Shown piece by piece: positions 26,408 through 30,337 of a stretch of DNA of 64,000 nt (positions within the stretch are counted from its first letter, which is position 1; each line of letters starts with the position of its first letter). Location of the stretch: NCBI RefSeq assembly GCF_900108485.1, contig NZ_FNXF01000001.1, positions 124,001 to 188,000 of the forward strand. Reading direction: 5' to 3'. The stretch comes from Rheinheimera pacifica. Lineage in GTDB: Bacteria; Pseudomonadota; Gammaproteobacteria; Enterobacterales; Alteromonadaceae. A program made the position numbers and the translations under genes. Below the pieces are notes generated by a model. That model searched no databases, had not been told where the DNA came from, and saw nothing but the letters and a program-made list of their open reading frames with translations.

Positions 26408-26421
26408 TTCAGGTGTATCGC

Positions 26422-26766
26422 TCAAAGCATATTCCGATTGCAGTAAGTTGCCTTTTCAAACTCACTGACATTCATCGCAATATTCGGAACATGCGGAAAC
26501 ATAGCCACTAACTTCTCAACAACCGATTGTGACAACTTTGCCCGCTGCTCAGTGGTGCGACCTTGCATAATGCTTGAAAACACGTGAATGAAAAGCTCAC
26601 GTTTTCCCCCAACTACATACTTACTGTAAGGATTCACCCGGACTTTAATATCACCGATATCAAACAAATCAGAGGCAACAGCAACCAGATGAATTTGCTC
26701 TGCAATATATTCCTCAGGGTGACTTTCCAGCACCTCAACCGAGCAGTCGACTATAAAATGCGGCAT
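26422..26766 (-). CDS. 5-carboxymethyl-2-hydroxymuconate isomerase (CHMI)-like protein, cassette gene
   Basis: A 114-residue protein starting MPHFIVDCS, with Pro2 after the initiator Met, the catalytic residue of the tautomerase superfamily, and the CHMI-like layout (VRVNPYSKYVVGG, FIHVFSSIMQGRT, AKLSQSVVEKL). In other bacteria CHMI works in homoprotocatechuate degradation, but no such genes are near, so the true substrate is unknown. The ATG at 26766 is preceded by AGGAAAAAC; a longer reading from 26865 would run through the attC site. It is the distal cassette: no attC is seen after it. Confidence 0.72.
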   Translation of the reverse strand: MPHFIVDCSVEVLESHPEEYIAEQIHLVAVASDLFDIGDIKVRVNPYSKYVVGGKRELFIHVFSSIMQGRTTEQRAKLSQSVVEKLVAMFPHVPNIAMNVSEFEKATYCNRNML

Positions 26767-26789
26767 TGTTTTTCCTCTATGTGTTGAAT

Positions 26790-26851
26790 TGCTAACGCCC
26801 CGCGCGTGAGCGTCGCAGCGGCTAAAGGCCACAAACGGCCGTTTGTTATCT
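26790..26851 (-). other. attC-like site 1
   Basis: On the minus strand the site opens with AGATAAC then AAACGGCC and ends with GGGGC then GTTAGCA. The ends are complementary (TAAC/GTTA, GCC/GGC) and the form AACAAACG...GGGCGTTA resembles Vibrio-type repeats. It separates the toxin-antitoxin cassette from the isomerase cassette. Confidence 0.7.
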
Positions 26852-26909
26852 GATCGTCCAACCATGTGCTACAATGTCTGACATTGCAACACACTTTGGA
26901 GTAGTTATC

Positions 26910-27194
26910 TTGAAAAGCGAAATGCTTAGCACACGCATAGATCATGACACAAAAGTCGCATTTACCAGCATTTGTGATGATGTCGGGCTAAGCCCATCTC
27001 AGGCACTCAAGCTATTTGCGCGTGCTGTTATCAATCATGGCGGTATACCTTTTGAGATTAAAGCACGCCAACCAAATGAAACTACAGTAGCTGCAATGCA
27101 AGAACTGGCAGCAGGTAAGGGCCAGCAAAGTAAGTCTCTTGATGCCATGTTAAACGAGTTAACCGAAGGCAAAGTACAAAGTGCTCACCCTTGA
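26910..27194 (+). CDS. RelB/DinJ-family antitoxin
   Basis: A 94-residue protein, with MLSTRIDHDTKVAF as a ribbon-helix-helix start, then ICDDVGLSPSQALKLFARAVINHGGIPFEIK, the usual DinJ/RelB dimer region, and a toxin-binding tail. TTG at 26910 with GGAG eight bases upstream is the preferred start; ATG at 26922 lacks a good site. Antitoxins of this family neutralise their toxin and repress their own promoter. It overlaps the toxin gene by 14 bases and is transcribed against the other cassettes, with its own promoter presumably in 26852-26905. Confidence 0.85.
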   Translation: MKSEMLSTRIDHDTKVAFTSICDDVGLSPSQALKLFARAVINHGGIPFEIKARQPNETTVAAMQELAAGKGQQSKSLDAMLNELTEGKVQSAHP

Positions 27195-27450
27195 ATATTC
27201 AACTCAGTTTAAAAAAGATTTCAAAAAAATTGCTAAGATGCCTATTCCCGACATTCTGGAAGTTGGGAATATCATCTCTCAGCTGCAGCGTGGCGAAGCA
27301 CTCGCCGCAAAAAATGTTGATCATCCTCTGAGTGGAAATTGGCTCGGCTTTAGAGATTGCCACATCAAGCCAGACTTCGTTCTAATTTACAGAATTGCTA
27401 ATAACACCCTGCAACTTGCCCGAATTGGCTCTCACAGCGAAATTTTCTAG
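27181..27450 (+). CDS. YafQ-family mRNA interferase toxin
   Basis: An 89-residue RelE/ParE-fold protein: LEYSTQFKKDFKKIAK at the N-terminus, LSGNWLGFRDCHIKPDFVLIYRI in the core and LARIGSHSEIF at the end, where the terminal His and Phe match the YafQ pattern. YafQ is a ribosome-dependent endoribonuclease. The start is a GTG within the antitoxin gene. The attC-like site 2 begins 15 bases after its stop, on the opposite strand, so the pair sits reversed inside its cassette. Confidence 0.87.
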   Translation: MLTLEYSTQFKKDFKKIAKMPIPDILEVGNIISQLQRGEALAAKNVDHPLSGNWLGFRDCHIKPDFVLIYRIANNTLQLARIGSHSEIF

Positions 27451-27464
27451 TTACACCAAAAATC

Positions 27465-27547
27465 ACATAACGTAGAGCTTTGGGGCGCCGGTCGAGTAGC
27501 TTAAGCCGTCCAAGCCCCGAAGATGCGATACCAGCCGCTTGTTAGTT
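27465..27547 (-). other. attC-like site 2
   Basis: On the minus strand it runs from AACTAAC followed by AAGCGGC to CTCTAC then GTTATGT. Internally GCATCTTCGGGGC is almost complementary to GCCCCAAAGCTC, giving the expected imperfect stem. The TAA stop of the kinase-like gene lies inside its first core. Confidence 0.68.
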
Positions 27548-28093
27548 TGCTTTGCTTTTTAGCCATTTGCTAACAATATCTGCGGTTACTGAAACAGGGC
27601 AAATTTCCTGAATTATTAGGTCGCAGTTTTTACGAACTTTATTTACTGTTTTAATATAAATATCTCTAAAGTGATCTTCGTAATTACTCAGATATTTAAG
27701 AACTGAACTATGTGAATCATTTGAGTGGCGTTCAATATTTCTCCTAATAACCCGAGAAAGACAAATATCCATAGGTTGATCAAGTAAGACTACATAGTCT
27801 ATAAACGAAGAAATACAGCTGCGTTCTCTACCAAATGGCTCTTCAACAAAAACATACGAGTGACTGCTTTCAATTAATTGTCGAAGATTATTGATCATAT
27901 CAGGCGTATAAATTTCGGATACGTCGGCCCCATTTTCTTTCCACTTTTTCATGTCTTTTGGATAGCTAAATTGATGAACGTAATCATCAAAATGCAAAAA
28001 AGGGCAACCGAAATCACTGGATAACTGCCTAACAGTTGATGTTTTACCGCACCCAGATGCACCGCTAATAGCTACGACTTTAACTCTATCCAT
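27542..28093 (-). CDS. P-loop kinase-like protein (uridine kinase/AAA type), cassette gene
   Basis: A 183-residue protein with a Walker A GASGCGKTS at residues 11-19, HFDDYVHQF as a likely substrate/Mg site, VFVEEPFGRERS as the second strand motif, VVLLDQPMDICLSRVIRRN as a lid with arginines, and a short C-terminal helical part. This resembles small nucleoside or uridine-kinase-fold proteins. The phosphate acceptor is unknown. It is AT-rich (about two thirds AT, against about half in the flanking genes), without a visible ribosome site stronger than a short purine run, and its stop codon is formed by the attC core. Confidence 0.72.
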   Translation of the reverse strand: MDRVKVVAISGASGCGKTSTVRQLSSDFGCPFLHFDDYVHQFSYPKDMKKWKENGADVSEIYTPDMINNLRQLIESSHSYVFVEEPFGRERSCISSFIDYVVLLDQPMDICLSRVIRRNIERHSNDSHSSVLKYLSNYEDHFRDIYIKTVNKVRKNCDLIIQEICPVSVTADIVSKWLKSKAN

Positions 28094-28123
28094 AGTGCCT
28101 CTATACGCCTATATTTGATTGTA

Positions 28124-28213
28124 AACTAACGCCCAAATTAGCGCGGAAAGCCGTGCAGCGGGTTAACGTCGCAGCCAGCGCTTTTTGCTGGCGATAATAT
28201 TCGTTTGTTATCT
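28124..28213 (-). other. attC-like site 3
   Basis: On the minus strand it opens AGATAAC followed by AAACGAATATTATC and closes with AATTTGGGC then GTTAGTT. AGATAACAAACG and GGGCGTTAG are the same end forms as in site 1. The upstream membrane-protein gene reads through most of it. Confidence 0.72.
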
Positions 28214-28644
28214 TGGGCCATCGCCAACCCCTGATTTATTTTATGTTGCATATAGATTACATGGAAAACTGACGTGATTAATGGCTTTAACCAAAGCTTG
28301 TCACCTCTCTTAGAACCTGCAATTAAATTAATCCGATTTCGCACCATAATTATCCAAGTTACGTCAAAAATACTTGAAACGATATGAATGCTGATTGAGC
28401 CTATTAAAATAGCTGGATCATGCAGGTTGGCTAAAGCATAAATCAAGCTGCCCAGGTGCATGGTGAATAATAAAATAGTTGTTACAATAAATAATTTAGA
28501 TATTTTATATTCAGTTTTTTGACTAATCAGGTTTGAGAAATTATAGAGCTTATATATTAGATAGGCCCCAACAGTCAGTATGCAAAGTAATAAAGTCTTT
28601 ATTACTGACTCAGCTTCAAATATTCCCACAAATCCTTTTTGCAT
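28138..28644 (-). CDS. Small membrane protein of unknown function, cassette gene with attC-encoded tail
   Basis: A 168-residue protein with about three or four hydrophobic segments (residues 15-33, 46-68, 75-100), loosely like DUF4234-type proteins (LTVGAYLIYKLYNFSN). I do not recognise a specific function. The last 24 or so residues, from AQDNKRILSPAK to the end, are translated from attC site 3, and the stop lies eight bases inside its far core. This suggests the original stop was lost or that the reading simply runs into the recombination site. Its start ATG at 28644 has an AGAG purine run (GGAGAGTAA) just before it. Confidence 0.65.
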   Translation of the reverse strand: MQKGFVGIFEAESVIKTLLLCILTVGAYLIYKLYNFSNLISQKTEYKISKLFIVTTILLFTMHLGSLIYALANLHDPAILIGSISIHIVSSIFDVTWIIMVRNRINLIAGSKRGDKLWLKPLITSVFHVIYMQHKINQGLAMAQDNKRILSPAKSAGCDVNPLHGFPR

Positions 28645-28684
28645 TTACTCTCCAAAAGTGAAAGGGCATCAATACTAAAGCGCA

Positions 28685-28774
28685 ATATAACGTTTATTCG
28701 GCGGGTTGATCCGTACTTAAACACGGTTTAACCTGCCTTTGTAAATGTACAGAACACTACACCGCTTGTTTAAA
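28685..28774 (-). other. attC-like site 4
   Basis: On the minus strand it runs from TTTAAAC followed by AAGCGGTG to AATAAAC and GTTATAT. End forms agree with site 2 (AACAAGCGG ... CGTTAT). The cores deviate more from RYYYAAC/GTTRRRY than in sites 1-3. It follows the Fic gene by about 110 bases, in which ACGGGTT/AACCCGT (28825-28848) forms a hairpin. Confidence 0.55.
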
Positions 28775-28881
28775 ACTTACAATAACTTATCGGTACAGCT
28801 GATAGTTGTGCTGGTGGCGCAAGTACGGGTTAAGCTGTCTGAACCCGTTTATTGCTGATCTCTAATAGCGCGTGCGAATTA

Positions 28882-30228
28882 TTATGCTTTTTTTCCATTT
28901 AGTTTGGATAGCAGCTCAGATGGTGCGATGTAGATTATCGTTCTTCCATCTTTGGTACTGAAAAACAGCTTCATTTCAACCAGCTTTGTCAGATAGCTTC
29001 GTGCTGTATTTTCTGAAACTGAGTAAGAGCTGGAAACTTCTTTTGCGCTAAAAACTCTACCGGGCTCTTTAACCGCTTTTTTAATTAAATCCTTTTGAAT
29101 AAAGTTAAGTTTTGAACCCCAGGACGTTCTTTCTAGTACTTCAGATATTTTTTGAAACTCAGTCGCCTTTTGATTCAGGTATTTTTTCAGCTCGTCGAAG
29201 GCTTTGTGTATTGTATCTAACTGAAAGTAGATAAAATAAGTAAGATCGTTGCTATCTTTTTCAGTGTACAAATAAGACAAACCGTACTCTCTTGGTTTCT
29301 CTCTTAAAAGCTTACTGATGGAGATGTATTTGAACAGAATGTAATCACTTTTCAACATGAACCAATAAAACAGGGCTCTGGCTGTCCTACCGTTTCCATC
29401 TCTGAAGGGATGCTCATATCCAATCATAAAGTGCAACGTTATTGCCTTAATCATTGGATGTATAAAGTCACTTCCCTCTATGCCGGTGTGGTTTTTATTG
29501 GCAAATTCACACAGCTTCAGCAACCGGTTTTCTATCGTAGAAAAATCCGGTGGTTGGTGTGCAATATTGCCATCACCATCTTCTATATATATATCGTTGT
29601 GCTGCCTAAACTGACCAGGGATAACATTGTTTCCGCTAGTTCCTGCTGTTGCTATCCGATGAAACTCAAGAATCATATCTAATGTTAATGTGTTTTTGCT
29701 ATTTTGCTCGGCGTATTTTAGTAACAGATAGTTATTGAGAATCATCCGTTCATCTTCATCAACCGGCTCTCTTCCTTCCTCCAGCATTTTTTTTGCAACT
29801 TCCCGGGTTGTCGATGCACCTTCCAACTGAGCACTGGTAATAGCTTCCTCCATTATTAATGAAGAAACCAAGAATCTACTCTGCAGGCTATCACTTGCAG
29901 CTGAATCAGCTACTGCGCCCACGTTTCCACCGGTCACTTTAACCAGTTGATACAAGATCGCTTCCATAGAGTGAGGAGTGCAATAAACAAATGGAGCCCC
30001 GTTTTCATCAAATAATCCGATAGGCTTGTATTGGGACATACGTTTAAATTTGACAGCTTTCCATAAATTTTCTGCATTTTCCTTTGGAACTCTCCATTTG
30101 AATTGGCTCCAATGCAGATAACGGCCATCAGAATCTGTTACATCACATTTTTCCAAAAGAGGAATAACAACCTCAAAATCTTCAGGAATACTGAGCACTG
30201 GTGGTTTTTCAACTCTTGACTTAGCCAT
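28882..30228 (-). CDS. Fic-domain protein with C-terminal winged helix, cassette gene
   Basis: A 448-residue protein. The Fic core motif HPFRDGNGRTAR (about 273-284) has the catalytic His and the phosphate-binding NGR. An N-terminal TSAQLEG (about 133-139) fits the class II inhibitory motif S/TxxxE(G/N), whose Glu blocks ATP gamma-phosphate. A winged helix (KAVKEPGRVFSAKEVSSSYSVSENTARSYLTKLVEMKLFF) ends the protein. Fic enzymes mostly transfer AMP to target proteins; in this Fic-DUF4172/HTH group targets are unknown. At about 1.4 kb it is a large cassette gene and is AT-rich. Readthrough from the TonB locus could express it. Confidence 0.88.
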   Translation of the reverse strand: MAKSRVEKPPVLSIPEDFEVVIPLLEKCDVTDSDGRYLHWSQFKWRVPKENAENLWKAVKFKRMSQYKPIGLFDENGAPFVYCTPHSMEAILYQLVKVTGGNVGAVADSAASDSLQSRFLVSSLIMEEAITSAQLEGASTTREVAKKMLEEGREPVDEDERMILNNYLLLKYAEQNSKNTLTLDMILEFHRIATAGTSGNNVIPGQFRQHNDIYIEDGDGNIAHQPPDFSTIENRLLKLCEFANKNHTGIEGSDFIHPMIKAITLHFMIGYEHPFRDGNGRTARALFYWFMLKSDYILFKYISISKLLREKPREYGLSYLYTEKDSNDLTYFIYFQLDTIHKAFDELKKYLNQKATEFQKISEVLERTSWGSKLNFIQKDLIKKAVKEPGRVFSAKEVSSSYSVSENTARSYLTKLVEMKLFFSTKDGRTIIYIAPSELLSKLNGKKA

Positions 30229-30330
30229 AACGCATCTCTAATTGACTTGCTTATTTGATTTTTAGAGTAAGCTTTTTATTATTAAAACGCAAATTCGAAA
30301 ATTTGAGTTATGACAGGCGTGTGTGGGATT

Positions 30331-30337
30331 GCCTAAC
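30331..30337 (-). other. GTTAGGC core site at the right edge of the cassette cluster
   Basis: On the minus strand TTTGTTAGGC stands 102 bases before the Fic start and 17 bases after the DUF6445-like stop. GTTAGGC is a canonical integron core (GTTRRRY). No matching inverse core with a long stem is visible upstream of it, so it may be a secondary insertion point rather than a full attC or attI. Confidence 0.55.

Follow-up and report, generated by a model that had tools for sequence, protein, structure and literature searches.

We analyzed a cluster of small gene units in a 64-kb stretch of the Rheinheimera pacifica genome (G000:C45:124001-188000; "the window" below is this whole stretch). The source genome, G000, is a 4.46-Mb draft in 46 contigs and was compared within a set of 31 Rheinheimera genomes that includes it. 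The cluster lies at 26.4-30.3 kb of the window, between a SASA-family gene on the plus strand and a DUF6445 gene on the minus strand. GC content is ~0.51-0.57 outside the cluster and falls to 0.34-0.47 across it, and five gene units are present, as stated by the original prediction, which had described an integrase-less integron cassette cluster. The same prediction took the flanking genes for one functional unit split by the insertion, a view that does not hold since the SASA and DUF6445 genes are convergent. What had been counted as a fourth attC site is, judged by homology, a relative of the attI and promoter region that stands beside the integrase gene (intI) in Rheinheimera. What is new is that this putative array head belongs to a large set of dispersed attI homologues.

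Gene cassettes and attC sites in the window

The sites were scored with an attC covariance model (R1) built from the genus itself, rather than with the model of IntegronFinder. R1 was trained on 28 sites, none inside the window: five behind the source genome's own intI remnant, six from other arrays of that genome, and 17 from relatives. Two-sided changes occur at 7 of its 11 stem pairs. Over the whole 64 kb, R1 gave three matches up to E = 10 and no others, all on the minus strand: the attC of cassette 2 (28125-28212, E 2e-5), of cassette 3 (27466-27546, E 5.5e-4), and of cassette 4 (26791-26850, E 2.7e-5). Three of the four attC-like sites originally proposed are thus recovered by an independent model, in the orientation predicted; the fourth has no R1 match and is the attI-like element treated below. 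A complete lack of attC matches, named beforehand as grounds for refuting the cluster, is thus not seen for these three sites. A manual attC finder that demanded long stems had returned no window sites and was superseded by core patterns and then by the covariance model, and an Rfam scan of the window gave no family above its threshold.

The array reads on the minus strand. Cassette 1 (28844-30336) encodes a Fic-domain protein (open reading frame, ORF, 28882-30228; Pfam Fic, 1.3e-18), and its own attC is degenerate and not matched by R1. Cassette 2 (28130-28690) encodes a small hydrophobic protein with no family match (ORF 28138-28644), and cassette 3 (27471-28129) a P-loop kinase-like protein (ORF 27542-28093; PRK, 4e-8). 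Cassette 4 (26796-27470) carries a toxin-antitoxin (TA) pair that reads opposite to the array direction, with a RelB/DinJ antitoxin (26874-27194, plus strand) and a YafQ/RelE-type toxin (27181-27450, plus strand). The last unit (26422-26795) encodes a CHMI-like protein (ORF 26422-26766; Pfam CHMI, 1.1e-10) and has no attC behind it.

No integrase was found in the window by tblastn with an intact IntI of a congener, in agreement with the original prediction, and no intI adjoins the array. With three attC sites and no IntI in the window, the label of a cluster of attC sites lacking integron integrases (CALIN) fits by definition. When intI was sought genome-wide, an integron was found on contig C17, its intI broken: in C17:162460-163034 the family is matched piecewise and in shifting frames, with model positions ~83-197 unmatched. 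Shorter intI pieces occur on the small contigs C34 (L012) and C24 (L013) of the same genome, the latter also with an attC match. Across the genus, 28 of the 31 genomes pass the cut-off of the IntI family. Action of IntI in trans is accordingly plausible for most of the genus and its ancestors; judged by the draft, it is not plausible for the source strain at present.

An attI homologue at the head of the array

The element at 28691-28843 (minus strand), hereafter the platform, is assigned by its homology to intI-adjacent attI and by its dispersed copies. Its 3' core, G^TTA, lies between 28691 and 28690, next to cassette 2. Its 5' core, GTTAGGC, lies at 30331-30337 (minus strand), cut off from the remainder by the Fic cassette, with the crossover, G^TT, between 30337 and 30336. 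The GTTAGGC core noted earlier at the right edge of the cluster is therefore present, but belongs to the platform as its 5' core. In relatives the two sides are contiguous: sequence corresponding to 28687-28843 abuts sequence corresponding to ~30333, beside the DUF6445 gene. When window position 30337 is joined to 28843, an uninterrupted platform results, as in 5 of 5 compared genomes, with the alignment crossing the join. This comparison comprised six sequences from five genomes (L020 and L035 both belong to G013) and left out G012 and G017, which have the locus but an altered 5' platform part. Because the join aligns across the cut in other genomes, the Fic cassette appears to have entered at the 5' GTT core. 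A Fic cassette 92% identical to that of the window separates the platform sides at the same place in G014.

The source genome's own integron remnant on C17 has both platform ends, between a LexA-type box and the first cassette. Among 20 regions beside congener intI, 11 hold the same type of attI, two are class 1 attI1-like, and seven belong to other lineages; an exact CTGT-N8-ACAG box occurs in each of the 11. A platform from G024 matched all 11 attI of this type and none of the other nine regions. Two of these matches were full-length (E 2.8e-20 and 3.4e-19), eight covered chiefly 61-66 nt at the 3' end (E 2e-8 to 4e-6), and one was in short pieces only. Against the attI of the source genome, the same platform aligned over 163 of 166 positions with 72% identity (E 3.9e-19). 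Length and phylogeny were examined with 12 attI, the source genome's own included, and 30 platforms, matches at E <= 1e-20 with unparsable cores being left out. From core to core, the 12 attI measure 159-160 nt, and 24 of the 30 parsed platforms 159-161 nt. The tree separates the attI, as a single group (support 0.947), from the platforms, indicating that the platforms are not recent copies of attI. By homology, then, a putative attI stands at the head of the array, which makes the array something beyond a mere grouping of attC sites.

A hairpin precedes the platform's 3' core, with 82.9% of cells paired, above all 1000 shuffles. Double changes number 11, within the range of the shuffles (mean 8.9, maximum 12), and we therefore claim pairing only and no covariation. 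Read-through from the DUF6445/halogenase unit may express the cassettes, as the original prediction suggested, and a promoter within the platform may also transcribe the first of them: by alignment with intI-adjacent attI, examined by eye, a candidate cassette promoter (TTGTAA, 17 nt, TAGTGT) lies at 28754-28782 (minus strand), and the place and spacing of its hexamers match TTGTNN-17-TAATNT in several of those attI. One platform, at G001:C19 (L177), has a chimeric-looking 3' end: its last bases match those of that genome's own attI exactly, and the rest is platform-like. An exchange between the two within the genome is a possible explanation.

Dispersal of platforms and probable movement of cassettes

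Platform matches number 100 in 26 of the 31 genomes, with nine in the source genome and up to 12 in a single genome, and the copies sit behind unrelated upstream genes. Homology to intI (-1 kb to +3 kb) was found at only 5 of the 100, all of them genuine attI. Among the other 95 matches, which come from 25 genomes, a same-strand attC (R1, E <= 0.01) lies within 3 kb downstream at 44 and within 1 kb upstream at two, and one match has an attC on the opposite strand; the two spans are unequal, and part of the matches are at contig ends. After removal of the 28 training sites these counts become 40, two, and one of 95. The copies diverge abruptly behind the 3' core: for the 56 of 79 matches at E <= 1e-9 with a parsable 3' GTTA, mean pairwise identity in 10-nt steps is 0.78, 0.64, and 0.72 from -40 to -10 before GTTA and 0.26-0.31 after it, where the anchoring itself fixes GTTA and part of the bases just 5' of it. 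In the wider family, the platform was found in 6 of 98 genomes drawn, four of Rheinheimera and two of other genera, and a search of phage records gave no match.

At the locus studied here, the platform stands behind the DUF6445 gene in 10 of 10 genomes whose DUF6445 protein is at least 67% identical, and the cassettes differ. The TA cassette is common to five genomes, the source genome and four others at the same locus; the CHMI unit is common to three, including G017 and G027 at the same locus; and the Fic cassette is common to two. The kinase cassette was not found at any other fetched locus. In G004:C6, a different platform is followed by cassette 2 over its entire length (561 of 561 bp, 85% identity), a recurrence that supports both its predicted borders and movement between platforms. 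A clean empty site had been named as confirmation of the cluster and was found in part. Unoccupied loci exist in other species (five, L039-L043), where the aligned flanks are ~0.13-0.94 kb apart with no platform match; the exact insertion point is not readable because the spacers are too diverged.

The source genome holds 47 R1 attC matches up to E 0.1, on 14 contigs. The heads of several of its arrays are not readable, because the arrays reach contig ends (C46, C40, C25, and C12) or lie on small contigs (C31 and C7). By eye, the end of the head on C23 (L318) resembles that of the attI region of G028:C13; the head on C37 (L314) has a GTGCCAAAAGCGGACAT motif and then another head ending at GTTA. 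A second repeated head sequence, without similarity to the first platform, has 30 matches in 11 of the 31 genomes (for example L242:2680-2985 in G002:C3 and C32:87138-87330 of the source genome). It ends at AATAAAATGTTA, beyond which the copies differ, and 15 of 20 fetched loci have attC (E <= 0.01), which by eye always lies downstream in the same orientation; compared with the 20 regions beside intI, it gave no match.

Origin of the array

Taken together, these observations lead us to propose, with a probability of about 0.82, that an orphan attI-Pc platform (Pc, cassette promoter) underlies the cluster, and that IntI loaded this gene-cassette array in trans in ancestors of the strain. The platform would be a ~160-bp homologue of the attI and promoter region of the genus, standing apart from intI. 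An ancestral IntI encoded elsewhere most likely inserted cassettes at the 3' GTTA core of the platform and, for the Fic cassette, at its 5' GTT core instead, and a promoter within the platform may transcribe the first cassettes. Since intI is now broken in the source genome, the array is probably frozen. At the level of sequence this proposal is carried by the attI homology, the dispersal of copies, the attC sites downstream, the divergence behind GTTA, and the broken intI. Cassette insertion itself is established integron biology; recombination in trans, promoter activity, and the spread of platforms are what we infer.

Several observations weigh against this proposal. At 51 of the 95 non-attI matches, no R1 attC lies within 3 kb downstream, which could mean that the contig ends there, that the copy is weak or damaged, or that R1 does not cover the attC. 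Three genomes (G000, G014, and G022) have no IntI above the cut-off, yet two of them carry occupied platforms. At the SASA locus of relatives, R1 gave only seven matches (E up to 0.1, 15 loci), four of them in L047 and on the other strand, indicating that arrays there are short or have attC outside the model. A consensus promoter scan called no promoter in the platform. Finally, C33:48186-48242 (L150) of the source genome is possibly a decayed integron: this copy resembles intI-adjacent attI in its middle part, its 3' core is damaged, and no intI lies close to it.

This last copy, together with the broken intI on C17, would fit an origin by decay, in which the arrays, as ordinary CALINs, would be former complete integrons whose intI was lost in place. 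Such an origin is very improbable in our view, as genomes hold up to 12 platform matches, only the five genuine attI retain intI homology nearby, and the attI group separately from the platforms in the tree. It is also conceivable that IntI used ordinary genomic GTT-type sites (attG) and that no special platform exists. According to the accessible text of PMC12444791, Xanthomonas has CALINs at several loci distant from intI, and off-target insertion is a proposed CALIN origin in that of PMC8618304. However, the insertion points share ~160 bp with attI, far more than a short core, and of all the alternatives we give this one the least credence, although the unclassified C23 and C37 heads could be of that kind. 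Somewhat less improbable than either, but still improbable, is that the platform is itself a promoter cassette without a gene, whose attC is long and unusual and which could be placed anywhere in an array. The GTT cores at both ends, the Fic cassette at the 5' core, and the hairpin before the 3' core would all fit, and cassettes with a partial attI excised by IntI1 have been published (PMC12901181, as far as accessible). In contrast, the window copy has no R1 match, the homology to attI is full-length, and the copies head arrays, same-strand attC lying within 1 kb upstream at only two of the 95.

A further alternative concerns how the platforms spread and is compatible with the trans-loaded array proposed above: platform and array may form a transposon-like unit with inverted end repeats that spread by transposition. 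The end motifs suggest such a unit. A left-end motif, GTGCCAAAAGCGGACATT (<= 4 mismatches), lies within 320 bp upstream of 27 of 79 platforms vs. 0 of 79 shuffled, and its inverted copy follows GTTA at eight downstream places and at none on the opposite strand (353 kb), some of the eight being one locus in two species. The GTGCCAAAAGCRGA leader, earlier taken as part of the platform and then as unrelated, is a possible left end. A 1359-bp unit with a platform relative (73% identity over 131 bp), a 321-amino-acid ORF, and a GTTA-ended, attC-like tail is 99% identical in Klebsiella and Pantoea plasmids with different surroundings (L303:4932-6290; L304). R1 gave no match on its tail, and the ORF gave none in Pfam. 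On the Vibrio europaeus plasmid pVEu (L309), the ORF part occurs alone among DUF3265 genes (91% identity), the match beginning at query position 229, the border between platform and cassette. Nevertheless, spread by transposition is unlikely as judged at present. The motif was picked by eye from the sequences on which it was scored, neither end is seen at the window locus, and no transposase and no duplicated target were identified. Before the second platform type, too, the left motif occupies the same spot, adjoining the platform at only 3 of 20 loci (<= 4-5 mismatches, by eye), and may be an older site. A related unit was noted before a PIN-domain gene on a Providencia plasmid.

More tentatively, and at somewhat less than even odds, Rheinheimera could harbor a distributed integron, in which a non-autonomous, repeat-bounded element spreads attI and promoter without intI, and one SOS-regulated IntI, acting in trans, loads cassettes into many chromosomal platforms, where they are expressed. 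Other IntI lineages may be served by further platform families (the second type and the C23 and C37 heads), and related units would have reached Klebsiella, Pantoea, and Providencia plasmids.

Relation to known integron systems

Like a sedentary chromosomal integron, the window array consists of an attI homologue with GTT cores followed by attC-bearing cassettes that share one orientation; unlike one, it has no adjoining intI, and the attI homologue is present in multiple copies per genome. Integrons typically have one attI, close to the integrase (PMC9024848, in the text accessible). With a CALIN the array shares at least two attC and no intI nearby, but differs in having an attI homologue at its head. 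For Xanthomonas, the accessible text of PMC12444791 reports conserved CALIN loci distant from intI; that of PMC8618304 names off-target insertion, intI loss, and rearrangement as CALIN origins, attI dispersal not being among them there. An attG is, in the text available of PMC12444791, a site that is neither attC nor attI. The cassettes studied here likewise occupy chromosomal GTT sites away from attI; the platform, however, is homologous to attI over its length and so falls outside that definition. Partial-attI (delta-attI) cassettes, which are active with IntI1, resemble the platforms in being displaced pieces of attI. They are, as described in the accessible portion of PMC12901181, sites of single resistance cassettes in mobile integrons, whereas Rheinheimera has whole platforms heading arrays genus-wide.

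Scattering of attI without intI would be a further, directly testable origin for integrase-less arrays, and dispersed copies would let one integrase serve many loci. As IntegronFinder does not detect attI outside class 1 (PMC9024848, accessible text), dispersed platforms would be missed by current tools. In the integron literature searched, with subscription papers largely outside it, attI copies dispersed without intI are not described, and novelty is not established.

Integrons flanked by structures like miniature inverted-repeat transposable elements (MITEs) offer a comparison for the end motifs, in that possible inverted repeats surround an integron-derived unit without its own mobility gene; the Rheinheimera unit differs in lacking intI and in recurring through the genus. 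Gillings is said to have described, in 2009, MITE-like structures flanking a class 1 integron. Two Rheinheimera genomes have class 1 attI1-like regions with a resistance-type first cassette, as we take them to be (L270, G025:C1; L271, G016:C45). As for the neighboring SASA protein, its five closest named loci are in Rheinheimera sp. EpRS3, R. hassiensis, a gammaproteobacterial metagenome-assembled genome, R. oceanensis, and R. pacifica, all at 88-95% identity.

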